Source: Oscillospiraceae bacterium
GTDB lineage: Bacteria > Bacillota > Clostridia > Oscillospirales > Oscillospiraceae
Assembly (NCBI GenBank): GCA_017457285.1
Contig: JAFTHT010000051.1
Coordinates: forward strand, 1 to 36,010
Direction of reading: 5' to 3'
Length of the DNA stretch: 36,010 nucleotides
Each line of letters begins with the position of its first letter. Position 1 is the first letter of the stretch. Below the pieces are notes generated by a model. That model did not search any database, was not told where the DNA came from, and worked only from the letters and a program-made list of their open reading frames with translations. Of this stretch, positions 7,590-31,131 are shown piece by piece. The position numbers were made by a program, and so were the translations under genes.

Positions 7590-8288
7590 TTACTTGTTGT
7601 AGTTTCGGGCGCCGAAAATGGCGGTGCCGACACGAATCATGGTGCTGCCGCAGCGGATTGCGTCCTCGTAATCCCCGGACATACCCATAGACAATATATC
7701 GACCCATACATTATCGTATTTTTTTGCCCTGATGTCAACAGCCAGACGATGAATTTTTAGAAAAAATTTGTCATTATCCCCGGAATTTTCGCAAATCGGG
7801 GGGATGGCCATGAGTCCGCGGAGCCGAACGTTGGGGAAATCTGCCATTTTTTCGGCCAGGGGGAGGATGTCGTCCATGGCGAAGCCGCTTTTGCTGGCCT
7901 CCTCGCCGACGTTGATTTCCAGCAGGATATCCTGGATGATGCCCTGCTTCGCGGCCTCGGCCTGGATGCATTCCAGCAGCTTCAGCCGGTCCACGCTTTG
8001 GATCAGATCCACCTTGCCCACCACCTGCTTAACCTTGTTGGTCTGCAAATGGCCGATGAAATGGACGGGGGCTCCGGTGTAGGCATTTTCGGAGAGTTTC
8101 TGGGTCAGCTCCTGAACCCGGTTCTCACCGCAGCAGTCAACTCCGGCGGCAATGGCCTGCCGGACGGCATCGGCATCGTTCATTTTGGTGGCGGCGCAGA
8201 GCAAAATCTCTTTCGGGTCACGGCCGCAGCATAAAGCGGCCTTTTCAATATCCGCCTTGATGGCGGCAACATTCTGGGCGATGGACAT
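7590..8288 (-). CDS. yggS: PLP homeostasis protein, YggS/YlmE family
   Basis: A 232-residue single-domain alanine-racemase-fold protein that binds pyridoxal phosphate through Lys35 in CAATKMND and regulates PLP and amino-acid balance. Family motifs visible are GENRVQEL, HFIGHLQTNKV, IQSVDRLKL, INVGEEASKSGF, LRGLMAIPP, LSMGMSGDYEDAIRCGSTMIRVGTAIFG. In Firmicutes it is ylmE, upstream of sepF (ylmF). The start at 8288 is supported by homology (MSIAQNV) and an AAAGG site 11 nt upstream; a longer frame up to 8360 would be encoded by the palindromic repeat and is rejected. It is the first gene of the cell-division cluster here. Confidence 0.93.
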   Translation of the reverse strand: MSIAQNVAAIKADIEKAALCCGRDPKEILLCAATKMNDADAVRQAIAAGVDCCGENRVQELTQKLSENAYTGAPVHFIGHLQTNKVKQVVGKVDLIQSVDRLKLLECIQAEAAKQGIIQDILLEINVGEEASKSGFAMDDILPLAEKMADFPNVRLRGLMAIPPICENSGDNDKFFLKIHRLAVDIRAKKYDNVWVDILSMGMSGDYEDAIRCGSTMIRVGTAIFGARNYNK

Positions 8289-11839: not shown

Positions 11840-12508
11840 TCACCTCATTGACAGAGTGCCGATGGTATTGACGGCGATATGGATCGCCAGGGGCGCGGCG
11901 ATGCTGCCGCTGAACTCATAGGCCCAGGCCAGCACCAGCCCGGCGGGGAGGTACTGGACGAAGCTTACCGGGTCCAGCCCATGGACATGGATGGCGGCAA
12001 AAACCAACGTGGAAACGGCGTAGGCCAGAATCCGGCTCCTGCGGTGGAGCGTCCCAAAGACCAGCGCACGGTAAAACAGCTCCTCCGCCACCGGGGCCAG
12101 CAGGACGGTGCCCACAGCCATCAGATAGAAATTCTGCCGCCCGGCATGGTTGATGACCACATCGTTGGTGTTTACATAACTCGGAAATAGCCGGTAGGTG
12201 ATGGCAGACACGGCGAAGATGGAAAGGTAGTACACCAGAAAACCAAGGCTTGCCGCCATCAGGGATTTCCTCCAGCGGTTGGAGAAATCCCCTGCGCTGG
12301 CCTGGAGGTAATCCCGGAAAATCCAACAAACAGCGGCGAAATTTACGGAAAAATAGGAAAAATTCAGGTGTGCGCTGTTGTATCCGGGAAACAAATAGTA
12401 AAGGGCATAGCTCAGAATGGTGGCGAGAAACACCAGCTGGAACAGCAGGTAGCGAATGCCCCAGCGGGTTTCTGAAATATTTAATTGGATGGGGAGTTGT
12501 TTGTGCAT
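11840..12508 (-). CDS. CPBP-family (CAAX-like) intramembrane protease
   Basis: A 222-residue membrane protein with about six hydrophobic helices (20-40, 50-66, 84-105, 126-140, 162-178, 185-215). The three CPBP/Abi motifs are present: EELFYRA (Glu142, Glu143, Arg147), FAAIH (170-174) and HIAVN (His210, Asn214). Such proteins are intramembrane metal-independent-looking glutamyl proteases; bacterial members serve in bacteriocin immunity, protein maturation or unknown tasks. The start at 12508 follows the mutS stop by one base and has no good ribosome site of its own, so translational coupling to mutS is likely; a TTG at 12517 is an alternative. Its position between mutS and mutL is unusual, and no repair role is implied. 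Confidence 0.88.
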   Translation of the reverse strand: MHKQLPIQLNISETRWGIRYLLFQLVFLATILSYALYYLFPGYNSAHLNFSYFSVNFAAVCWIFRDYLQASAGDFSNRWRKSLMAASLGFLVYYLSIFAVSAITYRLFPSYVNTNDVVINHAGRQNFYLMAVGTVLLAPVAEELFYRALVFGTLHRRSRILAYAVSTLVFAAIHVHGLDPVSFVQYLPAGLVLAWAYEFSGSIAAPLAIHIAVNTIGTLSMR

Positions 12509-15150: not shown

Positions 15151-15382
15151 ATGATTGTTTCGCTTAGGATGCACCCTCAAAAAAACGCATGTCATTGCGA
15201 GGCCGAAGGCCGTGGCAATCTCCCGGTGAAATGCCGGAAAAGCAACATATTAGGTGGTTGCAACCAGGTTTATAAGATTTTGCATCCCATCAAATTTCTT
15301 TTTTCGTGAGATTGTACCAGGAGATTGCCACGGCCCTTCGGGCCTCGCAATGACATCCTAATCTGATACGCTAAACAATCAT
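15151..15382 (-). repeat. Composite inverted-repeat element between miaB and mutS
   Basis: ATGATTGTTT (15151-15160) and AAACAATCAT (15373-15382) are exact inverted ends, with an inner inverted pair TTAGGATG/CATCCTAA. Inside are two facing REP-like palindromes: 15190-15223 and 15320-15355 (TGTCATTGCGAGGCC...GGCAATCTCC and its inverse). The central 95 bp have no recognised gene. The stop codon of miaB (15379-15381) lies inside the right terminal arm. This stretch fills the whole gap between miaB and mutS, including the region where a mutS promoter would be; none is clear. Confidence 0.75.
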
Positions 15383-16788
15383 TTTTCTTTCCGGTTTCCG
15401 GTCAGACTCCATGTTGTGGAGCCGGTGATGGTGATGGTTTGGTAGGTGCCGATGAGGGCATCGTCGCCGCTTAGCCGGACCAGGCGGCCGCCCTCTGTCC
15501 GGGCGGTGAGCTGATCGCCGTCTTTGCCGTCCACCAGACAGCGCAGGGCCTTGCCCACATAGGCGGCGTGAATTTCTTCGGAGATCCGGTTCTGGACGGC
15601 GCAGAGCTTGTCGAACCGGCGGTTCTTTTCTTCCTTCGGGGTGGGGTCCTCCATGGAGGCCGCCGGGGTGCCGTGCCGGGGGGAGAAAATGAAGGTGAAC
15701 AGGGCATCATAGCGCACGGCTTCGATGAGGGAGATGGTTTCCTCAAATTCCTCCTCGGTTTCCCCGGGGAAGCCCACGATCACATCGGAGGTCAGCACCA
15801 AATCCGGCATGACGGATTTGGCGTATGCCACCGCCGCCAGATATTTCTCCCGGTCGTAGTGCCGGTTCATGGCCTTCAGCACACGGCTGGAGCCGGACTG
15901 GAAGGGAAGATGCAATTGCTTTGCGATTTTGGGGTATTTGGCCATGGTGTCGAAGAGCTTCCGGCCTGCGTCCCGGGGGTGGCTGGTCATGAAGCGGATG
16001 AGAAAATCTCCCTCCAGCTCTGCAATCATGGAAAGCAAATCGGAAAAATCCACGCCGCAGTCCAAATCCTTGCCATAGGAATTGACGTTTTGCCCCAGAA
16101 GGGTGATTTCTTTGATGCCGGCGGCAATCAGGTCTTTGCATTCGGCCAGGATGTCGTCGGGCTTGCGGCTCCGCTCCCGGCCCCGGACGTAGGGGACGAT
16201 GCAGTAGGTGCAGAAATTATTGCACCCATACATGATGGATACCCAGGCCTTCAGCTTGTTGTCCCGGATCTGGGGGATGCCCTCGGCGATGGAGCCGGGC
16301 TCGTCGGCCACATAGAACTGCCGCTTGCCCCGGTAGAGGACATTGCACAGGATTTCCGGGAACTGCCACAGGTGGTGGGTGGAGAACACGCCGTCCACAT
16401 GGTGGTAGCTGTTTTTGATGCGGTCGGAAACGATGGTCTGTCCTGCCATGCAGCCACACAGGAAGATTTTCTGCCCCGGATGCCGCCGCTTGGTGTGGAC
16501 CAGGGCGCCCAGGTTGCCGAAAACCCGCTGCTCCGCGTGCTCCCGGATGGCGCAGGTGTTCATCACCACCACGTCGGCCCCCTCGGCTTCGTTGATAATG
16601 GAATAGCCGCTCTGGGCCAGGTAGCCCCGGATTTTTTCGGAATCCGCCTCGTTTTGCTGGCAGCCGTAGGTTTCCACATAGGCCTTGGGGACGGTGTCCC
16701 GCTGCTGCCAGTAGGCGGCGATTTGGTCGCAATATTCAAACTGCTTTTGCAGCTGTTCATCGGAAATCAGGGTGGTTTTATTGGACAT
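15379..16788 (-). CDS. miaB: tRNA-2-methylthio-N6-dimethylallyladenosine synthase MiaB
   Basis: A 469-residue radical-SAM methylthiotransferase that adds a methylthio group to C2 of i6A37 in tRNA, the product of MiaA. The N-terminal auxiliary [4Fe-4S] cluster ligands are Cys43 (YGCQQNEADS), Cys79 (NTCAIREHA) and Cys113 (LCGCMAGQ). The radical-SAM CxxxCxxC is Cys189, Cys193, Cys196 in GCNNFCTYC. Further motifs are PYVRGRERSR, LLGQNVNSYG and HLPFQSGS; residues about 370-455 form the TRAM RNA-binding domain. The start has GGGAG 9 nt upstream. It has its own promoter and heads the mutS/mutL/miaA/hfq group on the same strand. Confidence 0.96.
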   Translation of the reverse strand: MSNKTTLISDEQLQKQFEYCDQIAAYWQQRDTVPKAYVETYGCQQNEADSEKIRGYLAQSGYSIINEAEGADVVVMNTCAIREHAEQRVFGNLGALVHTKRRHPGQKIFLCGCMAGQTIVSDRIKNSYHHVDGVFSTHHLWQFPEILCNVLYRGKRQFYVADEPGSIAEGIPQIRDNKLKAWVSIMYGCNNFCTYCIVPYVRGRERSRKPDDILAECKDLIAAGIKEITLLGQNVNSYGKDLDCGVDFSDLLSMIAELEGDFLIRFMTSHPRDAGRKLFDTMAKYPKIAKQLHLPFQSGSSRVLKAMNRHYDREKYLAAVAYAKSVMPDLVLTSDVIVGFPGETEEEFEETISLIEAVRYDALFTFIFSPRHGTPAASMEDPTPKEEKNRRFDKLCAVQNRISEEIHAAYVGKALRCLVDGKDGDQLTARTEGGRLVRLSGDDALIGTYQTITITGSTTWSLTGNRKEK

Positions 16789-17080: not shown

Positions 17081-17122
17081 GGGCTCATTATGGACCGGCA
17101 AATGCCGGAGAAAGAGGAAGCT

Positions 17123-18499
17123 ATGAAGTGTAAACACTGCAAGGCGGAGCTGAAGGCGGGGGCCAAGATTTGCCCTTCCTGCGGCGAGTCTGTGAAGCAG
17201 ACCATGAATAAAGTGGAAAAGCAGCCGAAGCTCAAAACCTGGCATTGGGCGGTCATCATCACCGTGTCCGTCATCGCAGTACTGGTGGGGGCCATCGCCA
17301 TTTGGTGGGCGGCTGCGGATGTGGAGAGCTTTTCCGAGGGCATCACCCTGATTAACAATGCTTTTAATGAGCCGGATAATGATGTTTTTTATAAGAAATC
17401 CTATACTGTTTCCGATAAAAAGGCAGAAAAATGGCGGGATAAAGTTGTGGCCACTGTGGGCGGGAAAGAGCTGACCAATGGTCAGCTGCAGATTTTTTAC
17501 TGGCAGAACGTCCGGGATTTCCTGAATAACTACGGCTATTACGCAGTCTATGCGGGCCTGGACTACACCAAGCCCCTGGATGAGCAGACCTGCCCCGAGG
17601 TGGACGGCACTTGGCAGCATTTCTTCCTGGACGATGCCCTCAGCGGCTGGCACAATTACCAGGCCATGGCGATTTTGGCCGAGAAGGCCGGCATGGAGCT
17701 GGACGACGCACTGCAAAACGATATCGACAATATGCGTAATACCCTGACCCAGTCCGCCATTCAGGGAGGGTACGCCAGCATCGACGCCATGCTGAAGTCC
17801 GATATGGGCGCAGGCTGCACCTATGAGGACTATCAGTCCTATATGCAGATTTATTATATGGGCTATATGTACTTCGAAAAGATGTACGCCGAGGCCGAGG
17901 GAAAAATTACGGATGAAATGATTCAGTCCTGGTTTGACGAGAATCAATCCAGCCTGGCGGAAAGCAAAATCACCAAGGATTCCGGTGACTATTACGATGT
18001 GCGCCACCTCCTGATTTTGGTTGAGGGCGGCACAAAGGACGACAAGGGCAACACGGTTTACACCGATGCCCAGTGGGAAGCCTGCCGCCAGGAGGCTCAG
18101 AAGATTTACGACGAATGGCTGGCCGGGGACAGAACCGAGGCAACCTTTGCGGCTCTGGCGAACAAGCATTCCGAAGACAACGGCTCCAATACCAACGGCG
18201 GCCTTTATGATAATTTGACCGCTGATTTGAAGGATACTGCCAATCTGGACGAGAATTTTGTGGCCTGGTATACCGATGACGACCGCAAGGCCGGGGACCA
18301 CGCCCTGATTAAGACCCAGTACGGCTACCATGTAATGTACTTCGTGGATGCGCAGCCCCAATGGGAGAGCGCCTCCCGGGAGGGCATCATGAAGGAGAAG
18401 TCCGCTGAGATTGTGAACAACGCCATCAAGCAGTTCCCCATTTCTGTGGAGTACAAAAAAATCGTCCTTGGCACCGTGAATTTGGACAAGAGCAAATAA
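17123..18499 (+). CDS. Membrane-anchored parvulin-type peptidyl-prolyl isomerase with N-terminal zinc ribbon
   Basis: A 458-residue protein. Residues 1-24 carry a zinc ribbon (Cys3, Cys6, Cys17, Cys20), 41-64 a single membrane helix, and the remainder is expected outside the cell. Residues about 95-270 are a helical SurA/PrsA-like chaperone region (VGGKELTNGQLQIFYW); about 290-410 is the parvulin domain (DVRHLLILVEGG, FAALANKHSEDNGSNTNGGLYDN, TQYGYHVMYFVD). It probably assists folding of secreted proteins at the membrane, like PrsA but with a transmembrane anchor in place of a lipid. The start at 17123 is chosen by AGAGG 6 nt upstream and by the promoter; the ATG at 17090 is too close to the -10. 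The neighbouring giant secreted protein could be a client, which is inference. Confidence 0.88.
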   Translation: MKCKHCKAELKAGAKICPSCGESVKQTMNKVEKQPKLKTWHWAVIITVSVIAVLVGAIAIWWAAADVESFSEGITLINNAFNEPDNDVFYKKSYTVSDKKAEKWRDKVVATVGGKELTNGQLQIFYWQNVRDFLNNYGYYAVYAGLDYTKPLDEQTCPEVDGTWQHFFLDDALSGWHNYQAMAILAEKAGMELDDALQNDIDNMRNTLTQSAIQGGYASIDAMLKSDMGAGCTYEDYQSYMQIYYMGYMYFEKMYAEAEGKITDEMIQSWFDENQSSLAESKITKDSGDYYDVRHLLILVEGGTKDDKGNTVYTDAQWEACRQEAQKIYDEWLAGDRTEATFAALANKHSEDNGSNTNGGLYDNLTADLKDTANLDENFVAWYTDDDRKAGDHALIKTQYGYHVMYFVDAQPQWESASREGIMKEKSAEIVNNAIKQFPISVEYKKIVLGTVNLDKSK

Positions 18500-18520
18500 A
18501 AGCGGACCTCAAAAAAACGA

Positions 18521-18612
18521 TATCATTGCGAGAAGGCCTTGGGCCGACGTGGCAATCCGTTCTTCAAAAGGAAACGGATTCCCACGGTCGCCTTACTCCC
18601 TCGGAATGACAG
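18521..18612. repeat. REP-like composite inverted repeat
   Basis: Two facing elements: ATCATTGCG...CGTGGCAATCCGTT on the left and AACGGATTCCCACG...CGGAATGACA on the right. The inner arms 18548-18561 and 18573-18586 pair with a single mismatch. Related to the mutL/yggS/miaB repeats by its CATTGCGAG and GTGGCAATC words, but a different variant. It lies in the gap after the foldase stop codon. Confidence 0.7.
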
Positions 18613-18631
18613 ACTACTTTTTGACACGCTG

Positions 18632-18679
18632 AAAAAACACATCGGCTGACCCCTTTCGGGGCCAGCCGATGTGTTTTTT
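18632..18679 (+). terminator. Shared terminator between convergent foldase and small Cys protein genes
   Basis: A very strong hairpin: 17 bp (18632-18648 with 18663-18679), one A/C mismatch, then CCCC/GGGG with loop TTTC; A-run on the left, T-run on the right, so it can serve both strands. The stop codon of the 87-residue gene is 3 bp away. Confidence 0.92.
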
Positions 18680-18682
18680 TGT

Positions 18683-18946
18683 TTAAGAATTGAATAGTGC
18701 CGAAGTGGCAGTAGGAACATGGTAGCACAGGTAGTTGGCCATGGCGCTGCCATCTTCCACCACATAGCCGCCTTGCTGCTCGCAGCCTGCTATGCCGTCC
18801 AGAAACACCGTTCTGCCGCCGAGATTAACGCCGCAATTACCGTCTGCGAAGGTCTTGACGTTTTTTGCACAGCCGCCGGAGGCAATATTCGTGCAAAGGG
18901 AGAAGCGCTCGAAAGCAATATCCGGTTTGGAATAAGACTTTTTCAT
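18683..18946 (-). CDS. Small five-cysteine protein coupled to the giant surface protein, function unknown
   Basis: An 87-residue protein with Cys18, Cys26, Cys38, Cys55 and Cys74. The N-terminus KKSYSKPDIAFERFSLCTNIA has the look of a conserved recognition or leader segment, followed by a Gly-Gly-Cys at 24-26; the rest is Gly-rich with a YLCYHVP motif and ends FNS. It has no signal peptide or membrane helix. I recall similar KPxIxFExFxLxTNIAxGC openings in small proteins of gut Clostridia but no assigned function. The ribosome site AAGGAGG overlaps the TAA stop of the 4057-residue gene, with 11 bp between the two reading frames, so expression should be coupled. It could be a peptide precursor, a partner, or a small surface protein; none is proven. 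No modifying enzyme is in view. Confidence 0.8.
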   Translation of the reverse strand: MKKSYSKPDIAFERFSLCTNIASGGCAKNVKTFADGNCGVNLGGRTVFLDGIAGCEQQGGYVVEDGSAMANYLCYHVPTATSALFNS

Positions 18947-18957
18947 TTGCGTCCTCC

Positions 18958-21900
18958 TTAGCTGAAGTAAGTTTTGGCGCAGCTGCCATAGACGGCCATG
19001 GCCTTGGCCAGCGCCTGCATTGCGGAGCCGTCCTTGGCTGCGATGTTCTTGCAGTAGGCTGCCAGGCTGTAGGCCCGAATGCCGGTGCAGTACTGAACAC
19101 CATCCACCTGGTAAACCATGGCGATGAACACGCTGTCCTCGATTTCTTTGGCTGCGATGCCGCTGATTGCTCCGAACAGCTCGCCTTCACCCGACATGAT
19201 TATGGAGCCGGTGGCATTTTCAGCCGTCAAAACATCTGCTGCGTTGTAATCGGCAAGCCGCCAGTAGTACATGGTGACGGTGGCATCTACTGCGACAGAT
19301 GCGTAGTAGTTAATGGCGAATGCACCCTCCAGGGATACGCTGGTTCCGAAGTTCGCGAAGCCACCGGTGGCCACGAAGCTGCCAACCTTGCTGCTGTCGG
19401 CAGGGAAGGGGCTGGCAATGCGATTGGCATCGTAGGCAGGTGCCAGGGCTTTCTGCTCGTCGGTCAGGAAGCTGTTCATCAGATTCTCGGTGTTGTAGCC
19501 GAAGTACTTCTGGGCTTCGGCACCGTAGTTCACCAGAGCCACTACCAGAGCCTTGCTCTCAGCGGAAGCGGATTCCTTGTTCAGAATGTTCTTGGCGTAG
19601 GTGGCGGCGCTGTAACCAGCCACGTTGGAGTAGGCATAGCTGCCGTCGGACAGCTTGGCGTAAATCTTGAAGTAGAGGATGTCGCCCATCTTTTTGGCGG
19701 GGATGCCGCCCGTGCTGACCATGTACTCCACACCGTTGGTGACGAAGCCGGGAATCACTTCCACAGCGTCGTCCATGGTGCCGTCCTCCAGCCGCTGGCT
19801 GAAGAGAATCAGGCCCATTTCAACGATGTCCGAAGGATTGTCCACGGTGTAGTAAACATTGTACTGTACCTCATCCTCCAGGGACAGGCTGGCATCGGTG
19901 GGGGTAATGGTGGGAAGGGTCACATCATTCAGCACTGCCATGGCCATGTTCAGGGTATTGGGATTGGAGAAGAGGGCCTCATCGGCCATCAAATCGATGG
20001 CCTGCGTGGGCTGCTCCCGATAAGTAATCTTGAAATTGGTGATAGACAGGGTGGCTTCACCGGTGTTGCGAATCAGCACATTGGCATTACCCAGGACGGT
20101 GATGTCATAGTACAGGTCGGTGGCGCTCGCGATATCCTTGTCCAGGATTATCTTACCGTTGTCGTCCAGGTTGATGATTTGCACATGAGCGGTGCCGCCG
20201 ACACTCTTCATGGACAGGTGGATTTCATCCACAACCTCCGCAAAGGGTTTGAACGTACCATTTTCCATGGCCTGGCCTTTCTCAACGCTCAGCGCATTGA
20301 GCTTGAAGGCCACGGCCTGCTTGTTACTCAGATAGACCTCGTTATTGGGACCGTAGCTTGCGTAATCTGCAATGGCTGCCTTGCCGATGGTGCCGATGCC
20401 ATCGATGAACACCGCGCCGGGGGTGGTGCCGTCGGCACCGAAGTCCTTGGCGAAGATGAGCATATTCCGCAGCTCCTGGTAGCTGGGCCAGCCCTCGCCG
20501 TCGCCGGTGTAAGCACCCTGGATGATGGCATTGCCGGTGCCATTGTTAGCAGGATTGTAGATTCGGATGGCATCCAGATAGAAGTCGTAGCTGTTGTTGC
20601 CATATTGGCCGTGGTCGAACAGGTTGCCATAGCCCACAAAAATCTCGACTGCGTACTTGCCGTAGTCCAAATCCTCCAGTTTCATGACGGGGATTTGGTA
20701 CAGGGCATTGGGGTCGTTTTCGCAAATCTCCCACTGACCGTCGGCATTCTGCTTGTAGCCGTAGTAGGTATCCACCATCAGGTAGCGGTCCTGCACGGTA
20801 TCATCATCCAACCGGTCCACAGTAACCATGATGGTGCCGGTGGTGTTGCTGGTAAGGCTGATGATATCGAAGCCGGTGCCCCAGAAGGTGAAGGTGGCAG
20901 TGGCAGTTTTTCGGGAGATGACATTCCCTGCTGCGTCGGTATCCTCATAGACGTTGACCATCATAGCGGTAGCCATGGAGTACTGAGCCATGTTGACGTA
21001 CTGACTATCATAGCCGTAGAGGTTGCCGGTACCCACGCGGTCGGTGCTCTGGAGCTTACTCAGGGCGTCCTTGGCGTTGCTGTCGGTGGGAGTCCAGCCG
21101 GCATCGACACCGTTGGTGGAGCTGATATCGAACTCCACAAAGTTATCCTCATAGTAGATTGTGGTGGCGGGGATGATGGTCACCATGCCATAGTAGTGGC
21201 CGGCCTGGTCACCCACGGTGTACTCTACGACATAGTAGAAGGTTTCGTGGGTGTTCATCTGCATACCCATGGCCTTGGTCAGGGTGTAGCGGACAGAACC
21301 ATCAGTGATATCGTGATCCGCATCCTTCATCTGCAGATTGCCGAAGGCACCATTGGCCGTGGAGGAGAAGGCATTCGGCATGGTGACAGGCTCTTCACGG
21401 AGGATGCCGACCAGCTTGCTGTTGGCCGCCAGCAGGGTATCGTTGTCCAGCAGATTGATTTCCACGCTGAGACCAAAGTCAATGACAACCTTATCCTCCA
21501 CCAGGGTGCCGGTGTGGATTGTGAACTCGATGCTGTCGGCGGTGCCAAGGTGCTTTGCCACATCTTCGTCATCATTGTGGTTAATGTCATCGCCACAGGC
21601 GTCCCACTTGAAGAGGACTACACCCATAATATCCGTGGTGGTATTATCGGGATTGATGCAGGTGATGGTGACCTGGACATTGGTTTCCGCCATAATCTGC
21701 GTGGGTGCATCGTAGGTCAAAGTCAGGGTAGGCTCGGTATTGGGGTCGGTAGCATCCCCCTGCTCTCTGGTAATGATATCCACCCAAATGGGACCGGAAG
21801 TGAAGTTCTCCTTAGACACATTAGGCTTGTAACCCACGGGAACGGTGGTATCGTGGAAGGTGAACTCCGGTACCAGAATGTTGACATGGCTGGTTCCGGT

Positions 21901-24900
21901 TTTGGTGGAGCTTTCGCCGGTCTGCTTATTGACCAGCGTGACAGAGAAGGGGTAATCGCCCGGCTTGGTGTTGCTGATTTCGTCAGCGAAGGATGTTGAG
22001 TCAATCACCGTGGTTACATTGCCATCGGCACCGGTTTCGGTGTGCTTGGTCCAATCGATGGTGACGTAGTCATCCATCCAGTCCGCCGCGGGCTTGAAGC
22101 CCTCGGGCGTAATCTGTACATCCACACCGCCGGCGGTGACCTTCAGCAGATCCGTCAGATCCAGTTGATCACCATTGTTGCCGTCGAAGGTATGCAGGCC
22201 CCCAAAGTAAATGGTCTTGTCCTCGGTTTTCAGCTGAATCTGAACATCTATGGGAACATTGACCTCGGGCACCGGGAAGATTTCCACGGGAACATCGGAG
22301 TCAGGGGGGTACAGACCGGTGGTCACATCGTTGGTGGCCACATTGTCACCGCCCCAGAAGCCGTCCTTGGTTTTCACATCCACTTCCAGAACCAGCTTCT
22401 TGCCGTAATACTTGGTGTTGATGACGTTGCCGTTGGCATCCTTCAATTCTCTCGGCAGGTCGGAAACGTATTCCTCGGCATAGTCGAAGCCGGTTACGGC
22501 GACCTTATTAACGTCACTGCCGGGAATTTCGGAAACGGTCACCTTCACGGAGTTAATCAGTTCCTTGTCGTACCAATCGCCGGAGCCCTCACCCTTGTAT
22601 GCCTGGGTATAGACATGGACTTCCGCTTCATCACTATGGTTTTTGATGAACTCGAAGTATTCCGTCAGAACTTCCACCAGAATGGCGGTATCGTCCAGTG
22701 TAACTTCTGTGGTGGTGAACTGGTTGGTAATACTGCCGAAGGCCAAATCCAGATCGCCGAATGCGTTGACCTCCTTGGTGTACTTCGGTGCGCCGGTAAT
22801 GGCCGCACCGGGAGTAGCAAAGCCGGTAGCATTGGGATAATCAGAGGAAGAATAATTCAGGAAATGCCGGTCACCATCACCCATGGTGGCGGTACTGATG
22901 GAGTAAACCTTTGCGCCAAGGGTCTGCTTGGTGTACTGGGCTTTCTTAACCACCTCATCATAAATCTGGGTAGCGGTGGTGGACGGGTTGCCCTCTTCCT
23001 CGCCAATCAGGACATTGGGGATACCATCCGTAAACAGGACCACAATCCGATCACGCTTGGATGCATCCACCTTGTTGGCCTCCAGCACCTCGTTGGCCAG
23101 CTGCAAACCGGCTGCGGGACAGGTGTAGGAGTCGTTGGTATGGATGGCATCAATTAGTGTCAGCAGTTCCTCGTATTCCTGATCCACCGCCACGCTCTTC
23201 ATGGACTTTACATACAGTTCATTCCGGCGTGCCTGTGTGGTATTGACATGGTGAAGCGCATCGTAAGACTTGAAATCAGTCTCATCACCGCCCACGTAGA
23301 CCCGGGTGCCGTCGGTAGTGGATCCTGCAAAGCCCACAATGGACACGCTGTGGGCCACATCGGACTCCCGCAGTTCCTTGACGAAGGACAGTACGGATTC
23401 GTACAGCATTGCATACTGGGTCTTGTAGAAGACCAGCTGCTCGGGCAATTCATCATAGCTCCAATCCTGCTCCATGGTATGTTCCGTCCAGCCGGTTTTA
23501 TTAACGATACTTTCCGTGGTGGGAACACTGTAGCCCCTCCACTTTGCCGTGGTGGGATTGTATTCCATGACGAACCAGCCCAGGTATTTGGCGCTTTGTG
23601 CCACATAGTAGCCCATCCGCTGACCCTTAGCCGGATCAAGCTGATCTTTGGTCAATTGTCCCTTGTCGGTCTTGTACTGTTCACCATAGAGCGTGCCGCT
23701 CTTCAGAACTTTTGTTGCACCAACGGGGGTACGCATCGATCCGGAGTGGTCCAGAACCAGGACGATGTCCGCAGGCTTGGTGGCCACCATTTCCTTGACC
23801 TTGCCGGTGGCGTAAGCCTCCAGGGTCAGGCGGAACTTGGTATTGGTGTTGTCCAAAGGCGTAGCGGTCTTATTGGTAATCAAACCGTTGGCATCATTCT
23901 CGATGGAGGACACATGGATCCAGAAGTCCACCTGATTCTCATCGGCCTTGTGGGTGGGAATGGTTGCCTCATCGTGCAGGGTGCTGGAGCAGGGAGTCCA
24001 CTCGAAATAGGCCACGGAGTTGATGACCTCGCCATCCCGATACACGGTGACATCCAGCGCAGTATCCTCGGTGAAGCTACCCTCGCGGGAATAAGTCAAA
24101 TCCAGCGTGGGCTCGGTACCCAGGGTGACGGTGTTGCTGATATCCGTGAGCTTACCGTTGGAATCGTAGGGGCTGACCATGTCTACCCATTTGATGAGAT
24201 TGTCGCCCAGGTAGTTGGTGGCGTTGTAGTATTCCGCATCTGTGTGCTTACCGGAGAGAATCATGGAGTCCATGAAGGTCAGCACGGGCACCAGGACGCT
24301 GACTTTGCCCACGGCGGTAGCGGTGTAACCCTCAGTGGGAACAACCTCGCCAACGGAGGCGACCTCTGTTTCCTTGGGGGTAGCCACAACGCCAAAGCTG
24401 TAAGCGTTTACCTCCTTGCCGGAAACCGGTGTCTGGCTATTGGAGAAGTCCGCAGACCAGTTCAGCTCAGCATAGTCATCCATCCATTCCTCGGCGGGAG
24501 TCAGGGTCTGTGCATCGATTGCGATGCCGCCGAGCGTGATGGACTTCAGCAAATCTTTGCCGGTGATGCCGCTTTGACCATAGTAAACCACCTGGTCCAG
24601 CGCCTCAATCACAGGCTTCACCGGCACATTCACATGGGGCACCGGGAATACGCTGACCACCGTCTCCTCGGAGCCGGTTACATCATAAATCGCGGTATCG
24701 TCCTTGTTGGTGGGCACATTGTTGCCGCCCCAGAAGCCTTCGCGGACTTTTACGGGGATTTTCACAATGAGCTTGCTGCCGTAGTAGTCGGCGCCGTCCT
24801 TCTGGCGGGGAGTGATGGAGAAGCACTCGGTGTGGTAATCGTAGCCGGTGATATTCACAATATCATACCGGTTGCTACTGGGATTGGTCTTGCCCAGCTG

Positions 24901-27900
24901 GATTCCGGCGGTGCTCAGAGGAATCCACTGATTCTGGGGTACCACAGAGCCGTCGGCATTGAAGGCCGCGGTATAGACCTTGATGCCGGCCTTGATTTCA
25001 TCCGGAGTGTTCCCGATGAATGCCATATAGTCTGACAGCACATCCCGCAGGACATCCTCCTGATCCAGCTCCACCGTCGGTGTCGTGGTGGACTCCATAA
25101 CGAAGGTGAAGGCCTCCAGCGTCAGCAGGAAGTTCTCCTCCTGGGTCTCGACCTTCTTGTCAACGTTCATGCTGTCGCCCCAGAAGAACTCGGGAGAAAT
25201 GGTATCCACTATCTCGTCGTGCCCTCTGTAGTTCACATAGTAGAGCTTGGCACTCTCGTTGGTGGGATAGACACCAATCTCGGGAATCTGGGCAGGATCT
25301 TCGGAATCAGAACCGGTCAGCACCACGGGGTAGTCCAGCACCAGCTCCGTGACACCGATATTGCCCACCTTCCAGTAGAAGGTCTCCGGAGCCAGCTCGA
25401 AGTCCACCACCTTATCGCCATCAGTGTCCAGCCAAACCGTCTGATCCACATTGGTATTGTACCAGAAATTTTTCGCCGCAATCAGGCCGTTGTCCTGCCA
25501 GATATCGGGGTACTCCACCACGGTCAATTCATTGCCGTTGGCATCGGTGGAAACCGTGGCCCTGAACACTGCGCTGGACTTGGCAATGCCGTTACCAGCG
25601 AAGGTGACACGCTCCATGACGATGGGATCGCCGACACGCTCGTGGGCGTTGTTCAGGGTGTACTCCCGCACCTCAATGGCAGGCTCCATGTTCTTGATGA
25701 TGGTGGTTTGCAGATCGTAATCCTCGCCCAGCGTATCCACGAAGTAGCCGTCGGTGGCAGCGTGGGCCACGGAGGAAGCAATCGACGCAAAGACCTTGCT
25801 CAAATCCTCGCCGGAGTAGGCCGCATAAGCGAAGCTGGGGCCGCTGGAGATGTTCTCCAGAACCTGTACCGTGTCCTCGTTGGAAATCAGCACCGTATCG
25901 CCGATGGACATGGCCAGCGTGTAAATCGGGATATCCAGACCCCGGAAGCCGCCCATGTAGTCCTTCCCGTTCCAAGCCGCGCCGGAACCGTCGGAATAGT
26001 AGTTACGAATGGTGCCGTTGTAGCCGTCGTAGCTTTCATCGTGGGCATACTTGTTAATCACAGGGTAGAGCTTGTCCGTATCACCCTTGATTGCCTCGGC
26101 CCACCAGTTCTTGCCCTCGGCATTATAGAAATAGCTGTAGGGGCTGAGGGTCGCCCACTCGTAGCCGTCCTGGATTGTGGTGACCTCTGCAAAAATCTCC
26201 TTGATCATGTCCTGCAGGTCATACTCGACCCCGTCCACAACCACAAAACCCAGAGAGTCGCCACCCTCTTTGTCATCGACCCGGTCCGCGCTGCGGTAGG
26301 CCATTTGGATGATATCCAGCTGCGTAATCTCCCGGCCCAACAGCGCTTCGACGGATGCATACAGGTCCGTTGCGTCGGGATCATACAGGAAGCGGCTCGG
26401 GTTTTTGGTTGTGGGATATCTCAGGGTCAGCGCACCCGGCTGTTGCTGTTTGGCAATCTCCAGCAGTGCCTGATCCGCCGCGGTAATCTGTTCCTGGGTC
26501 GCGTTCTTCACGTCGATGACGACACCGTTGGCGTCGCAAATTCGTTGGAAACTCAATGTATCCAGCAGGATGCCGTTTCGGGCCATGACGGAGTAAAAAG
26601 AGTTACAAGTTTGGAGGTCATTTTCCAGGAAGAAATATGCCTCCGCGCCATTGTCCATTGCGGTCCAGGCCAGCCAGCCCACATCATCTTCTACCGTATT
26701 CTTGGCATTTCCGGGATAGGTGGCATCCTTCGGATAACCCCGAACGGCACTGTTCTTTTCGTACTTGGCAGTACCGTCGGCATTGACCACACCGGAGTTG
26801 ACCAATCGGGTCTCCGCATCGTCGGAGCGATAGAACAGCGCATCCGGATTCGCCAGGGAATGCTGCTTCGTTTTCAGGATCTCAAGCATCAGCGCCTCCA
26901 GCTGTGTCAGCTTGGAAGGCTTGTTGTCTTTGTTGAAGGCAGCGCTTTGGAACTTGTTCGGATCAATTGCGCCGGTAAACCAGTCCGGCCAGGCGTTGGT
27001 GATGGTACGGCCGGAGAAATAGTTATACTGCATGGGGGCGCCGTCGGACATGAACACCGCGACCACTTCACGGTTGCGGCCCTGATTGATGTTATCCTGC
27101 TGAATCGCGTAGCCCAGCCGATACATATACTCCATGCCCCAGTCGTAGTTGGTGCCATAGAGGTAGCCCTCGCCCTGCTTGAAGCCATCAATCAGAGCTT
27201 CCCATTCCTCATAGGTCCGGTCTTTCACGGAAACGAAGGCATCCGCGTCCACCCGGGTGCTGCCGGTGTATACGTTGGGTTCCAGACTGCCCATATACTG
27301 GTCGTGGACCTTGTTCCACTTGGTGATGGTGTCCGTCCAGGGCTGGTCACGGTTCATATTGTAGTTTTTCTTCTGCTCCGCTGTCAGCTGATCGAAGGTG
27401 GCCTGGTCGATTATGTGCGGCAGCGTAGAATCCTTTACGGTGGAGTGGCGGTAGTAGGTTGCCACGTTATAGTCCGTGTACACATAGTTCAGGTGGTTAT
27501 AGTACTCATAGAAACTACCGAACTTGGTGTCTGCGTCGTTCCAGTCCGTACCGTTGGTCACGTCAAAGAAGGACATCTCCCGGATGCTCTCATCCGCCAC
27601 CGCGTCATCGAACATGAAGTGGTCCAAATCGCCGAAATCGGAAATCGCGATTCGGAATTCGATGTCGCTGGCCTGCAGCGTCTTAATCAGTTCCTTCATG
27701 GAAGCCTTCAGCTCCGACAGGCGGCTGTCGGGGTCCTGGTTACTGATTGCGTAAGACATGGAGCCGGACATATCCAGCGTGATAATCATATCCACGCCCT
27801 CGGTCACCGGCACACCGGTTGCAGACAGCTGGATATTGGCGATACCGGAAGTGGAGAAGCCGGCACCGCCGGCTGTGCCGGTCTTATTCACCAGCACGGA

Positions 27901-30900
27901 GCCGGGCTGGGGATAGCTGGGCTGATCCAGCTCTTCAATCGTCTGCACCGTCAGCTTGAAGTCATCGCTGACCACCATGCCGGCATAGCGCAGCGTCAGG
28001 CCGTCGTACACCGTGCCGGGCTCCACAGCGGTCTGCACCAGCGTGCCTTCCACGCCGGCGCTGACAGCACTGCCACCCGGGGCGGTGACGGTGGTATCAG
28101 CATCATAAGTCAGCATACCCACATTGACGGACACTTCCCGCCGCTCATAGCCGTCCGCGGTGTCCACCACAACGGTCATGGTGCGGTCGGTGACGATGCC
28201 GTCGTCAGTGCGGCTTTCGAACACATTGCCGGTGATGGAGGAACCCGCTGCCGCCAGGCCCTCGGAAACCACCTCATGATTGACCAGCAACTCCTTGCGA
28301 ACGTTCAGTGTCAGGGTCGTAATCTCGGTATCGGTGCCGTCATCGTTGCGGTACTTCACCAAAATTCTGGAAGAACCGGCAGTGTCGGTGGAGAAATCAC
28401 CATCGAGCCAGTAGTAGCCGGTCTTGGGGGTGGTACCACTGCAAGGAATCTCGATATCCCGGCGATAGGTATCCTTTACAGTCAACTGATAGTTAATCGA
28501 CCCAATCAGTTCCTCCGAATCCATCCCCACGATGGTATCGAAGGTCCGCGGGCCATCACAGCCCACATGTCCGGGTGTCGAGGTGACATAGTACTTATAA
28601 AGACGCAGCTTCAGATTATCCAGATCCGCTTCTGCGGCGGAAACGGAGGTATAAGTCTTTTGAATCCAGTTGCCCTCGTTATCCACCGTCAGGAAACGGA
28701 AGTCATTGCTGCCGTCGCTGTAATAGATTATACAGGTATCGCAGCCTTCGATTATGCCGTCCCCATCCACATCCGTGGTGGCGTTATTGGCGAAGAACTC
28801 GATACGGGTGTTATAGCTGGGGTCCTGAGAGCCCTGTCTAATCAGACCGGCATTGCCCGGGACAAGGAACCGCCAGGCGGTATCCCCATTCGCGGGGTCG
28901 GTGTACCAGTAGACTTCCTCGGAGGACAGCCCCTTCATCCAATAGGAACGATAGATGTATTCCTCTGCGTTGCCGCCGAATTTGGGGGAATAACCACTAT
29001 GCTTCACCTGATCGCTGTCGGCGTACTTATCAAAGATATCGTCCAGCGTGAACTCCCACAGAATTGCGTCACGCATATACGGGATAAAATAGAGCTTGTC
29101 ATCGTAGGTCTTGCCGCTGGCGTATCTGAAATACAGGTCAAACGTTCCGGCATCCACGCCCGGACGGGTGCCTGCGGTCAAAGAGCCGGGTCTGGCCGGG
29201 TCCTCAGTTCCGGTAAGAGGCGAGTAGCTCAGAACCAGATTGGTCTTGTCGTGGACGATGATGTACTTTTCGCCGGAAATCAGCAGATCATTCGTCACTT
29301 CGTTAGAACTCAACTCCACGGCGTCACCACGGATGGTCAGGCTGGTGACGGGGACCTTCTCGACGGAAGCCACATCAGATCCAATCACATTGGAAAACAG
29401 CGTCCATCCCTCATAGGCAAAGTTGGGGGCCGCCTTGGTATACACGGAGTAGCCGGTGGGATCTTCCGTATCCCGGGCCATGCCCAGCGCCGTCGCCTCG
29501 GCAAAGGCCTTGTTCTCACCGAACACGATTACGGCAGTTTCGTTGCCCTCCCAGTAGGTCTTGTGGGCAGCAGTGGTGTTGAAGTACAGATCCTCCTTAC
29601 CATCCCCGTCCGCATCCTGCTCCTGCATCTCCAGGAAGAGGTTGCGAAGGTTGGGGCGGTAGGTGCCGGCCGCATCCTTGGTGGTATAGTCCCCATCCGG
29701 GCCATAGATGGCCTGCTTATGCTGGGTGTACAGGAAGATATCCGCACCGGACATGGCCACCAGCTCCGGGTGAGCGTCATGGCCGTGGTGGGGAACCATC
29801 ATGATATCGGTGGCCAGCACAGAAGGATTATATGTATCAATTATAATCTGGTCGGCCAGATTGGTATCGGCATAGAGGACTGTATCATAATCCCGGTCCG
29901 CGCCGGTCAGCTCCTTGGGGAAGGTGATTTTCACCACCGTGGAGGTGTCGTTGAAGTCGAACTTCCCGCCATCGGGGTATTCCTTCAGATCCTGCAGGAA
30001 ATCCCGGTAGGTGCCGCCCTCACGGAGCTTGCTGGATACTTTGCCCGTTTTCAGCTTGTTGTTGGCATCCGGCAGGAACCGGTCCTCCTGGGTGTAGATT
30101 ACATCGAACGTAATCCCGCAGATGTCGAACTTATCGCCGGTGTGGGGCTTGTAGTACTTGACCTCGGGGAAATAGGCCTTGACCATTCGCATCACGGGAG
30201 TCATGTCCCGGGTGGAACCGGTCATCTCGTCGTCCAGACTGTACATCACGTTCTTGATGTCAATCTGGTCGTGATACTTGTCAAAGAACCGGGGGATGCC
30301 CTCAAAATGGTCCGAGTGGGCATGGGAGATGAACCAGGTGTTGATGACCACCTTTTCTCCCTCGGTCTTGCCGGTCACTTTCCGGCAGAAGTCCATGAAA
30401 TCCGCACAGACCTCATCGCTCCACTGCTGCAGATCGCCGCCGTCGTTGATGAACAGGCTGTTGTCCGGCATCCGGATTACAATCATCGCGCCGCAGTTAC
30501 GCATCTTCAGGTCGTACTCTGTCTTGGTGCTGGTGGTGTCGTAGCCGTGGGGCGCCATGGACAGGCCATACATGGTCATCATGACCTCAGCCGTCTCATT
30601 GGTGGCGCTTTCATACACGAAGCCACCGGAGAAGTACTTGACGATATCCTCGGCGGTATCGGCAACAATCTTCACCTCCTGATAATCGGGGGTGTAGTAG
30701 ACCGTCAGCACATAGTCCCCCTTGGGCGACAGCCAACGGGTGGAGATGTTATTCTGCCCCGCTTGCAAAGCAGGCAGCGTATTTTCTGCCATTTTGGTGA
30801 ACTGGTTCTCTGCCAGTTTGGTCAGGTAGGCGTTGAATTGCTCCAGAGTCGTTTCTCTGACCATGCGGAAATAGCTCTTGGCATTATCCTGCGTCAGGCC

Positions 30901-31131
30901 GTTGCCGCATTCAGTCACCAGTTCCTCCGAAACCAATCCACCATCATAGGCCGGGATGTCCGTAGGAACCGCAGGCACCCATTTCTTCTCCTCGGAATCG
31001 GATTGCGCTGTGAATTGTTGGGTTTCGGTGTCGCGTTGTTCTGCTGCGAATGCCAGCCCGGTCAGGTTGGGCAGCAGCATCGCAAAGCACAGCAGCAACG
31101 CCAGAAACCGTTTGATTGCGCTGTTTTTCAT
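18958..31131 (-). CDS. Giant secreted protein: metallo-beta-lactamase fold plus two von Willebrand A modules
   Basis: A 4057-residue protein. Residues 1-30 are a signal peptide (AFAA/E). A metallo-beta-lactamase fold of the ComEC-like type follows (HAHSDH at about 268-273, VPHHGHDAH near 445). From about 1110 a vWA domain with MIDAS DMSGSM (about 1119) and a second with DHSGSM (about 2460, FTDGIP near 2700); both are followed by GFWGG-N-V, FPVP-VNVP, a YYG/YFGG strand and a WMDDY module, so the region is an old tandem duplication. The last 315 residues repeat a domain also found at the end of the neighbouring lysozyme. No LPXTG, SLH or dockerin is seen. Start 31131 has GGAGG 8 nt upstream; a TTG at 31233 (AGGAGG close) would lack the signal at its N-terminus. 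Adhesion or surface display is inferred. Confidence 0.9.
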   Translation of the reverse strand: MKNSAIKRFLALLLCFAMLLPNLTGLAFAAEQRDTETQQFTAQSDSEEKKWVPAVPTDIPAYDGGLVSEELVTECGNGLTQDNAKSYFRMVRETTLEQFNAYLTKLAENQFTKMAENTLPALQAGQNNISTRWLSPKGDYVLTVYYTPDYQEVKIVADTAEDIVKYFSGGFVYESATNETAEVMMTMYGLSMAPHGYDTTSTKTEYDLKMRNCGAMIVIRMPDNSLFINDGGDLQQWSDEVCADFMDFCRKVTGKTEGEKVVINTWFISHAHSDHFEGIPRFFDKYHDQIDIKNVMYSLDDEMTGSTRDMTPVMRMVKAYFPEVKYYKPHTGDKFDICGITFDVIYTQEDRFLPDANNKLKTGKVSSKLREGGTYRDFLQDLKEYPDGGKFDFNDTSTVVKITFPKELTGADRDYDTVLYADTNLADQIIIDTYNPSVLATDIMMVPHHGHDAHPELVAMSGADIFLYTQHKQAIYGPDGDYTTKDAAGTYRPNLRNLFLEMQEQDADGDGKEDLYFNTTAAHKTYWEGNETAVIVFGENKAFAEATALGMARDTEDPTGYSVYTKAAPNFAYEGWTLFSNVIGSDVASVEKVPVTSLTIRGDAVELSSNEVTNDLLISGEKYIIVHDKTNLVLSYSPLTGTEDPARPGSLTAGTRPGVDAGTFDLYFRYASGKTYDDKLYFIPYMRDAILWEFTLDDIFDKYADSDQVKHSGYSPKFGGNAEEYIYRSYWMKGLSSEEVYWYTDPANGDTAWRFLVPGNAGLIRQGSQDPSYNTRIEFFANNATTDVDGDGIIEGCDTCIIYYSDGSNDFRFLTVDNEGNWIQKTYTSVSAAEADLDNLKLRLYKYYVTSTPGHVGCDGPRTFDTIVGMDSEELIGSINYQLTVKDTYRRDIEIPCSGTTPKTGYYWLDGDFSTDTAGSSRILVKYRNDDGTDTEITTLTLNVRKELLVNHEVVSEGLAAAGSSITGNVFESRTDDGIVTDRTMTVVVDTADGYERREVSVNVGMLTYDADTTVTAPGGSAVSAGVEGTLVQTAVEPGTVYDGLTLRYAGMVVSDDFKLTVQTIEELDQPSYPQPGSVLVNKTGTAGGAGFSTSGIANIQLSATGVPVTEGVDMIITLDMSGSMSYAISNQDPDSRLSELKASMKELIKTLQASDIEFRIAISDFGDLDHFMFDDAVADESIREMSFFDVTNGTDWNDADTKFGSFYEYYNHLNYVYTDYNVATYYRHSTVKDSTLPHIIDQATFDQLTAEQKKNYNMNRDQPWTDTITKWNKVHDQYMGSLEPNVYTGSTRVDADAFVSVKDRTYEEWEALIDGFKQGEGYLYGTNYDWGMEYMYRLGYAIQQDNINQGRNREVVAVFMSDGAPMQYNYFSGRTITNAWPDWFTGAIDPNKFQSAAFNKDNKPSKLTQLEALMLEILKTKQHSLANPDALFYRSDDAETRLVNSGVVNADGTAKYEKNSAVRGYPKDATYPGNAKNTVEDDVGWLAWTAMDNGAEAYFFLENDLQTCNSFYSVMARNGILLDTLSFQRICDANGVVIDVKNATQEQITAADQALLEIAKQQQPGALTLRYPTTKNPSRFLYDPDATDLYASVEALLGREITQLDIIQMAYRSADRVDDKEGGDSLGFVVVDGVEYDLQDMIKEIFAEVTTIQDGYEWATLSPYSYFYNAEGKNWWAEAIKGDTDKLYPVINKYAHDESYDGYNGTIRNYYSDGSGAAWNGKDYMGGFRGLDIPIYTLAMSIGDTVLISNEDTVQVLENISSGPSFAYAAYSGEDLSKVFASIASSVAHAATDGYFVDTLGEDYDLQTTIIKNMEPAIEVREYTLNNAHERVGDPIVMERVTFAGNGIAKSSAVFRATVSTDANGNELTVVEYPDIWQDNGLIAAKNFWYNTNVDQTVWLDTDGDKVVDFELAPETFYWKVGNIGVTELVLDYPVVLTGSDSEDPAQIPEIGVYPTNESAKLYYVNYRGHDEIVDTISPEFFWGDSMNVDKKVETQEENFLLTLEAFTFVMESTTTPTVELDQEDVLRDVLSDYMAFIGNTPDEIKAGIKVYTAAFNADGSVVPQNQWIPLSTAGIQLGKTNPSSNRYDIVNITGYDYHTECFSITPRQKDGADYYGSKLIVKIPVKVREGFWGGNNVPTNKDDTAIYDVTGSEETVVSVFPVPHVNVPVKPVIEALDQVVYYGQSGITGKDLLKSITLGGIAIDAQTLTPAEEWMDDYAELNWSADFSNSQTPVSGKEVNAYSFGVVATPKETEVASVGEVVPTEGYTATAVGKVSVLVPVLTFMDSMILSGKHTDAEYYNATNYLGDNLIKWVDMVSPYDSNGKLTDISNTVTLGTEPTLDLTYSREGSFTEDTALDVTVYRDGEVINSVAYFEWTPCSSTLHDEATIPTHKADENQVDFWIHVSSIENDANGLITNKTATPLDNTNTKFRLTLEAYATGKVKEMVATKPADIVLVLDHSGSMRTPVGATKVLKSGTLYGEQYKTDKGQLTKDQLDPAKGQRMGYYVAQSAKYLGWFVMEYNPTTAKWRGYSVPTTESIVNKTGWTEHTMEQDWSYDELPEQLVFYKTQYAMLYESVLSFVKELRESDVAHSVSIVGFAGSTTDGTRVYVGGDETDFKSYDALHHVNTTQARRNELYVKSMKSVAVDQEYEELLTLIDAIHTNDSYTCPAAGLQLANEVLEANKVDASKRDRIVVLFTDGIPNVLIGEEEGNPSTTATQIYDEVVKKAQYTKQTLGAKVYSISTATMGDGDRHFLNYSSSDYPNATGFATPGAAITGAPKYTKEVNAFGDLDLAFGSITNQFTTTEVTLDDTAILVEVLTEYFEFIKNHSDEAEVHVYTQAYKGEGSGDWYDKELINSVKVTVSEIPGSDVNKVAVTGFDYAEEYVSDLPRELKDANGNVINTKYYGKKLVLEVDVKTKDGFWGGDNVATNDVTTGLYPPDSDVPVEIFPVPEVNVPIDVQIQLKTEDKTIYFGGLHTFDGNNGDQLDLTDLLKVTAGGVDVQITPEGFKPAADWMDDYVTIDWTKHTETGADGNVTTVIDSTSFADEISNTKPGDYPFSVTLVNKQTGESSTKTGTSHVNILVPEFTFHDTTVPVGYKPNVSKENFTSGPIWVDIITREQGDATDPNTEPTLTLTYDAPTQIMAETNVQVTITCINPDNTTTDIMGVVLFKWDACGDDINHNDDEDVAKHLGTADSIEFTIHTGTLVEDKVVIDFGLSVEINLLDNDTLLAANSKLVGILREEPVTMPNAFSSTANGAFGNLQMKDADHDITDGSVRYTLTKAMGMQMNTHETFYYVVEYTVGDQAGHYYGMVTIIPATTIYYEDNFVEFDISSTNGVDAGWTPTDSNAKDALSKLQSTDRVGTGNLYGYDSQYVNMAQYSMATAMMVNVYEDTDAAGNVISRKTATATFTFWGTGFDIISLTSNTTGTIMVTVDRLDDDTVQDRYLMVDTYYGYKQNADGQWEICENDPNALYQIPVMKLEDLDYGKYAVEIFVGYGNLFDHGQYGNNSYDFYLDAIRIYNPANNGTGNAIIQGAYTGDGEGWPSYQELRNMLIFAKDFGADGTTPGAVFIDGIGTIGKAAIADYASYGPNNEVYLSNKQAVAFKLNALSVEKGQAMENGTFKPFAEVVDEIHLSMKSVGGTAHVQIINLDDNGKIILDKDIASATDLYYDITVLGNANVLIRNTGEATLSITNFKITYREQPTQAIDLMADEALFSNPNTLNMAMAVLNDVTLPTITPTDASLSLEDEVQYNVYYTVDNPSDIVEMGLILFSQRLEDGTMDDAVEVIPGFVTNGVEYMVSTGGIPAKKMGDILYFKIYAKLSDGSYAYSNVAGYSAATYAKNILNKESASAESKALVVALVNYGAEAQKYFGYNTENLMNSFLTDEQKALAPAYDANRIASPFPADSSKVGSFVATGGFANFGTSVSLEGAFAINYYASVAVDATVTMYYWRLADYNAADVLTAENATGSIIMSGEGELFGAISGIAAKEIEDSVFIAMVYQVDGVQYCTGIRAYSLAAYCKNIAAKDGSAMQALAKAMAVYGSCAKTYFS

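Follow-up and report, generated by a model that had tools for sequence, protein, structure and literature searches.

The question raised by this locus is what kind of protein is encoded by a gene of 87 codons that lies immediately behind a giant surface gene. The window, i.e., the whole stretch of 36,010 nucleotides that was analyzed, contains the small gene at 18683-18946 on the reverse strand, with its ATG at 18946, as read from the open reading frame and the family alignment. Its Shine-Dalgarno sequence AAGGAGG (18953-18959, reverse strand) overlaps the TAA of the giant gene (18960-18958), and 11 bp separate this stop codon from the ATG; both elements of the original prediction are borne out by the coordinates. 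The strong terminator announced 3 bp after the small gene's stop codon is also found: the hairpin (18632-18679, reverse strand; -40.7 kcal/mol, z -10.65) has its first base, 18679, 3 nt beyond that codon, and none of 200 shuffled sequences is equally stable. That the giant gene and the peptide are made together can fairly be inferred from this spacing.

The upstream partner (18958-31131, reverse strand; VWA_2, E 3.3e-8) encodes 4057 aa. The 12-kb surface gene described earlier is thus confirmed, except that its start is more likely ATG 31131 than TTG 31233, judging from the sequence. The giant protein has a signal-peptide-like start, an HxHxDH motif and VWA domains. The metallo-beta-lactamase-like segment with HxHxDH has no Pfam match and only weakly matches an anti-phage MBL model (16.9 bits vs. 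a cut-off of 220). A second giant surface gene (31493-36010, forward strand) diverges from the first and ends at the contig end, inside a C-terminal region of similar appearance. The intergenic stretch 18500-18640, ending CTCGGAATGACA, has the appearance of a dispersed repeat.

The 87-aa peptide has no family in Pfam or NCBIfam, and a PDB search gives no relative up to E 1. The source genome (G000; 65.7% complete, 82 contigs) contains two more full copies (C49:3482-3742 and C16:14657-14908, about 65-67% identity), which lie 11 and 13 bp, respectively, behind the last codons of another giant gene, as translated at the contig ends. The orphan peptide of C16 or C49 may follow the second giant gene of the window; the end sequence common to these two contigs is absent from the window. 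A fourth, distant copy is located on C30, with E 0.24 for the single sequence and E 3.6e-21 for a profile already containing that copy. It adjoins an HprK-like gene: a membrane protein, the distant precursor and the HprK-like gene are placed between two giant genes (L013, 8740-10987), and there is no radical SAM gene in the 19 kb around this locus. Among the three close copies, for which dS approaches saturation, the dN/dS ratio is 0.09-0.18; one closer pair in a different genome has 0.38. Paralogues, purifying selection and the recurrent spacing behind giant genes indicate that the 87-codon gene is real.

The peptide is found in 31 of 136 genomes of the genus (profile, E<=0.05). At the level of the order it is found in 10 of 394 genomes, three of them of the same genus (48-row profile, E<=0.001). 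At the level of the class there are 6 genomes upon 391, i.e., G000, G159 (same family), G808 (E 2.5e-8) and three weak matches (E 2.6e-4 to 4.0e-4), one of which is interrupted by stops. When the single protein is used as the query against contigs of named genomes, one locus is obtained, L005 (Oscillospiraceae genome, goat colon); L005 and G083:C38 share genes and are counted once.

The alignment of 48 members divides the protein into two parts. Residues 1-25 (18872-18946, reverse strand) form a candidate leader with a YxKP motif (Y5, K7, P8), E13, F15 and I21-A22. Residues 26-87 (18686-18871, reverse strand) form a candidate core with C26, C38, C55 and C74, a variable middle and a conserved CYH...F.S end. 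M1, Y5, P8, C26, C55 and C74 are invariant; K7 (92%), I21, F48, Y75 and the final Ser are present in at least 90% of the members, E13 in 90% and C38 in 88%. The mean majority frequency is 0.63 for residues 1-22, 0.30 for 27-54, 0.21 for 56-73 and 0.55 for 74-87. The leader is better conserved than the middle of the peptide, and the N-terminus that had looked conserved in the single sequence is so across the family. All five predicted Cys (18, 26, 38, 55 and 74) are present; four belong to the family, while C18, in the leader, is not conserved. In the same manner, the Gly-Gly-Cys at residues 24-26 exists in the window copy and in both G000 paralogues, but its Gly-Gly is not conserved among the 48 members. 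The conserved signal of the leader is rather the invariant YxxP, of the kind bound by the recognition proteins of lasso peptides and of linear polyphosphorylated peptides (LPP). A lipoprotein reading of the IAxxC motif was rejected because no hydrophobic signal precedes it in the sequence.

Two features extend to a larger set of 74 distinct precursors, with start codons assigned by rule in the relatives. A [Y/W]xxP motif occurs within the first 45 residues in 73 of the 74 (counted by script; the sole miss is a mis-started row and one 5'-truncated row matched spuriously). Two divergent precursors have WxxP. A final Ser is found in 71 of the 74 complete precursors vs. 18 of 463 flanking ORFs, the latter being a mixture of real and spurious ones; the other three precursors end with SF, SY and SG. 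It must be noted that the profiles contain the final column, hence a slight bias to Ser, and that a single column cannot decide a match. This count leaves out L072 (a fragment of a precursor already represented on another contig) and L128 (no stop codon). The C-terminal Ser87 of the window copy (codon 18686-18688, reverse strand) is the proposed kinase target. Two divergent candidate precursors of 140-146 aa (L129 6922-7362, reverse strand; L142, i.e., C30 of G127, 7799-8221, forward strand) have WxxP and NEYIAAC leaders and a Ser at the end. The profile may capture only part of the peptide family, since these candidates lie beside the same enzymes and score only about 16 bits (16.6 bits for L142).

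The genomic context was mapped for 64 peptide loci fetched by a peptide match, i.e., 51 of 66 places from the genus search and 13 of 14 new places from the order search; G027 C25 and C26, G097 C44, G125 C32, G022 C62 and G446 C36 were left out. Five of these loci supplied the seed sequences of the cassette profiles (two in the case of PqqD); the seed of the giant profile was the window protein together with its matches. The recurring order on the profile maps is giant gene, peptide, membrane protein, HprK-like gene, radical SAM/SPASM-like enzyme and PqqD. In a second arrangement PqqD is followed by the peptide, the HprK-like gene and the radical SAM gene, and the genes of the membrane protein and the giant are found close by or on the opposite strand; some genomes have an altered order or no membrane gene. 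Within 6.5 kb of the peptide are found HprK-like genes in 47 of the 64 loci, radical SAM genes in 42, PqqD in 37 and the membrane protein in 32. An HprK-like or radical SAM gene is present at this distance in 49 loci and neither in 15, some of these being truncated at contig ends and some being genuine giant-peptide pairs without enzymes. Nine further places from the genus search (L133-L141) all have radical SAM and/or HprK-like genes. In other families of the order the cassette is complete in G436, and G474 and G486 have all of it except the membrane protein. The expectation that homologues would lie near radical SAM enzymes and giant genes is thus positive for most loci of the 64-locus tally. 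Three giants of other cassettes were compared with Pfam: one has no family, one has Big_2 and a metallophosphatase, and one has VWA and Big_2.

In 35 of the 64 loci the gene directly upstream of the peptide, in the same orientation, is a giant, and the spacing is 11-20 bp in 28 of these 35 (a giant being a match to the profile of the window giant, and a few starts being uncorrected). The C49 and C16 loci, recognized by translation as described above, come in addition to the 35. Such tight spacing is also observed outside the family (G436, G474). Enzyme-free giant-peptide pairs are those of the window, C49 and C16, of G153 (C14, C25), G103 (C71) and G436 (C24), and the same genomes have a maturase module elsewhere (G000 C35, G153 C31, G103 C56, G436 C1). 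In G000, the only radical SAM match with E<=1e-10 (C35:480-1532, E 1.9e-160) is located between PqqD and HprK-like genes, and HprK-like matches are restricted to C35 and C30. The earlier statement that the window has no maturase is therefore true of the window, but genes for PqqD, radical SAM and HprK-like proteins stand together on C35 of G000. Since the enzymes of G000 are on C35 and its peptide pairs stand elsewhere without enzymes, maturation probably acts in trans, a reading that relies on a module located on a different contig, in an assembly of 65.7% completeness.

Other genes of the window deserve a mention. The radical SAM protein at 15379-16788 (reverse strand) is MiaB (tRNA modification; 467.9 bits vs. 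a cut-off of 355.3) and not a peptide maturase. A convergent gene (17090-18499, forward strand) encodes a peptidyl-prolyl isomerase-like protein (46.5 bits, below the cut-off of 303) that begins with a zinc-ribbon-like segment, contains a hydrophobic stretch and might help to fold secreted giants. A CPBP-type intramembrane protease, MroQ/MrtJ-like and below cut-offs, is encoded between MutL and MutS (11840-12508, reverse strand).

Peptide and radical SAM enzyme also occur together at the level of genomes. The radical SAM gene (E<=1e-90, a threshold set after viewing a gap in the list) is present in 33 of the 136 genomes of the genus: 29 have both, 2 the peptide only, 4 the radical SAM only and 101 neither. 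Fisher's p is 5e-23 and is only indicative, because the genomes are related. At a preset threshold of 1e-60, 38 genomes have the radical SAM gene, and the corresponding values are 29, 2, 9 and 96. In both peptide-only genomes the radical SAM gene is truncated by the contig end (L055, L017). Among the four radical-SAM-only genomes, G076 has, between its PqqD and radical SAM genes, a divergent candidate precursor that scores weakly (16.3 bits), with a WxxP leader, NEYIAAC and a C-terminal Ser; in the other three the contig stops where the precursor would be.

The enzymes belong to recognizable kinds. Three radical SAM members match Pfam with E 5e-24 to 2e-29. CxxxCxxC and seven further Cys of the C-terminal half are invariant in five members, except that the first motif is missing in L005 because this gene is read from a later start. 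These seven Cys have a spacing much like the SPASM consensus; of three radical SAM members compared with Pfam, two match SPASM below its cut-off and the third has no SPASM match reported. The radical SAM protein is not assignable to a named subfamily because it is under the cut-off of every NCBIfam model among the best 25 listed per protein. PqqD is over the Pfam cut-off (E 4e-16 and 4e-14 in relatives, 1.9e-17 in the G000 copy), and the best NCBIfam models for the G000 copy are lasso PqqD chaperones, below cut-off. In the HprK-like family, His, GKST and NGD are invariant (32 aligned members). There is no Pfam HPr-kinase match, and the PDB matches up to E 0.01 are only two HPr kinase sequences (1jb1, 2qmh; E 0.0011). 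The ScmC and HprK-related-A models match the protein weakly (35.2 vs. 125 bits for ScmC). Compared with the motifs of lasso kinases, His, GKST and the last Asp are kept and the first Asp of DD is replaced by Gly (NGD); on the basis of the alignment, this change from DD to GD is the chief reason not to take kinase activity for granted. The membrane protein belongs to no family, with a sub-threshold FxLYD match in one member only.

No peptidase or exporter was found adjoining the window gene or the C35 module. Elsewhere, Wzz, CpsB and MsbA-like exporter genes are close to several cassettes. An SpI-like gene overlaps the end of the exporter gene in L060, L074 and L118 and is next to PqqD in L125; these are the only four SpI-like genes among the loci scanned (one query, which could miss a divergent copy), and the single match in G000, on a different contig, is sub-threshold (23.5 bits). 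NTP_transf_5 lies near the cassettes of L018, L054 and L060; as a cassette part it was rejected as unspecific, because 17 of 18 genomes have it over cut-off and few have it near a cassette. When 67 of 153 selected flanking ORFs were compared with Pfam, 77 families matched; among the 25 listed, AAA_31 (6 members) and Wzz (5) are the most frequent, and no constant further partner of the cassette is found among the families listed.

Taken together, the 87-aa protein is probably a RiPP-like precursor that belongs to the giant surface protein. The reasons are that many relatives adjoin radical SAM, PqqD and HprK-like genes and that nearly all end in Ser. The proposal of a ribosomally made, modified peptide is thus supported by the YxxP leader, the enzyme cassette and the C-terminal Ser instead of the Gly-Gly route. 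The mechanism would be as follows: (i) PqqD would bind the YxKP leader and present the precursor in trans to the radical SAM and HprK-like enzymes; (ii) the radical SAM enzyme would probably install cross-links, most simply thioethers on the conserved Cys; (iii) the HprK-like enzyme would phosphorylate the C-terminal Ser; (iv) the leader would then be removed by some peptidase; (v) the product would be exported and act at the cell surface with the co-expressed giant protein. The tight spacing, which persists even in enzyme-free pairs, argues that the product works together with its giant protein. Two characterized HprK-like RiPP kinases, BsfK and LppK, described as acting on the core Ser3 (PMC10368454, PMC13381572), speak against a simple reading of step (iii).

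Several other explanations have to be weighed against the precursor reading, and they differ mainly in what becomes of the leader and of the product. The original prediction considered a possible leader cleavage at Gly-Gly, which would imply export by a C39 peptidase-ABC transporter. The GGC of the window copy and its two paralogues suggests this, and it is nevertheless highly improbable: Gly-Gly is not conserved among the 48 members, and 8 of 18 genomes have one match each to Peptidase_C39 (PF03412), of which 7 are over cut-off and none is inside a cassette, the only one on a cassette-bearing contig (G153 C32) being about 10 kb away. The Gly-Gly cleavage and C39 export were rejected on these two grounds. 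The opposite view, i.e., a modified small protein that is never cleaved and serves as a structural partner of the giant (its modified Cys and phosphorylated C-terminus acting as a fold or an attachment device, not as a released product), is a possibility to be kept in mind, if a minor one. The same lack of conserved Gly-Gly is in its favor, as are the absence of a peptidase consistently beside the cassette and the giant-peptide pairs without adjoining enzymes, from which it follows that the pair travels as a unit; moreover, with a core as long as about 60 residues the protein might stay uncleaved. On the contrary, the contrast between leader and core conservation and the YxxP leader resemble cleaved precursors, and SpI-like genes accompany the exporter or PqqD in the four loci mentioned above.

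A free secreted signal or antimicrobial peptide, linked to the giant gene by shared expression only, would agree with the variable middle of the core, the MsbA-like exporters near some cassettes and the patchy spread within the genus. It is unlikely in view of the spacing of 11-20 bp in most of the directly downstream loci, including those outside the family, and of the several giant-peptide pairs per genome. Finally, the lack of any Pfam or NCBIfam family could be taken as the sign of an ordinary small cytosolic protein or of a spurious ORF. This is hardly credible for conserved paralogues under purifying selection, for a cassette that recurs in other genera and for a protein with no PDB relative up to E 1.

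The precursor reading can be extended, as a rather doubtful proposal, to a new class of surface-bound RiPPs. Each giant would be translated with its own Cys-bearing precursor, and one central PqqD/radical-SAM/HprK-like machine would act in trans on all of these precursors, cross-linking their Cys and phosphorylating their C-terminal Ser. Through this phospho-Ser, which a nucleotidyltransferase might have extended, the peptide would be linked to an envelope polysaccharide and would tie the giant to the capsule. If the precursor reading is right, the system joins the modification of peptides by radical SAM enzymes, the HprK-type phosphorylation of a Ser at the C-terminus and giant surface proteins, three elements that were not found together in the open-access literature. 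Small ORFs without a Pfam or NCBIfam model would gain a testable chemistry, one machine would serve several substrates per genome, and the system would suggest a means by which a bacterium could anchor its very large surface proteins or add decorations to them.

No description of this cassette was found in the open-access literature, and LPP phosphopeptides (linear polyphosphorylated peptides, Popov et al. 2026, PMC13381572) are the closest known kind. As described in that text, LPP clusters contain a recognition protein and an HprK-like kinase, are found in capsule loci, and require YxxP for binding of the recognition protein; the target of LppK is the core Ser3. The common points are a discrete recognition protein, an HprK-like kinase (by similarity), a YxxP leader and precursors with a conserved N-terminus and a variable remainder (PMC13381572). 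LPP are in capsular polysaccharide loci, and some of the present cassettes are near NTP_transf_5, MsbA-like, SpI-like and Wzz/CpsB genes. Unlike the LPP clusters as presented there, the present cassette includes genes for a radical SAM enzyme and a membrane protein as well as a giant surface gene; the LPP main text contains none of the terms "radical SAM", "rSAM" and "surface" (0 occurrences; PMC13381572). The reported target is Ser3 of the core vs. a conserved C-terminal Ser here, and of the reported leader YxxPxVLxHQxIxFETxxS (PMC13381572) YxxP is kept while the remainder differs. Membership of LPP was rejected on the leader consensus and on the inconsistent presence of the SpI-like gene; the likeness in the way of working holds nonetheless.

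Paeninodin-type lasso peptides, whose kinases are reported to phosphorylate a C-terminal Ser (PMC8498205, PMC10368454), share a kinase homologue, a recognition protein, a C-terminal Ser and a [Y/W]xxP leader with the present system. The same accounts give BsfK the core Ser3 as its target (PMC10368454). The differences from the lasso systems as reported are the radical SAM enzyme and a longer, Cys-bearing precursor, and a lasso peptide was rejected because the B2 peptidase PF13471 is over cut-off in none of 18 genomes (sub-threshold in 5 of 18). The SynChlorMet/HprK-related-A systems, compared by the names of their NCBIfam models only, have HprK-like, PqqD-like and radical SAM/SPASM proteins named likewise and no surface gene among those names. 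The present proteins are far below the curated cut-offs (cf. ScmC above), and a SynChlorMet cassette was rejected, no Scm protein being over its cut-off. The radical SAM/SPASM maturases PqqE, StsB and PapB resemble the present enzyme by CxxxCxxC, SPASM-like Cys, a PqqD partner and a Cys-bearing precursor nearby, and differ in that the present proteins are below the cut-offs of the best 25 models listed per protein. The parts are thus of known kinds, while the combination of a radical SAM enzyme, an HprK-like protein, the coupling to a surface gene and a near-universal C-terminal Ser seems new.
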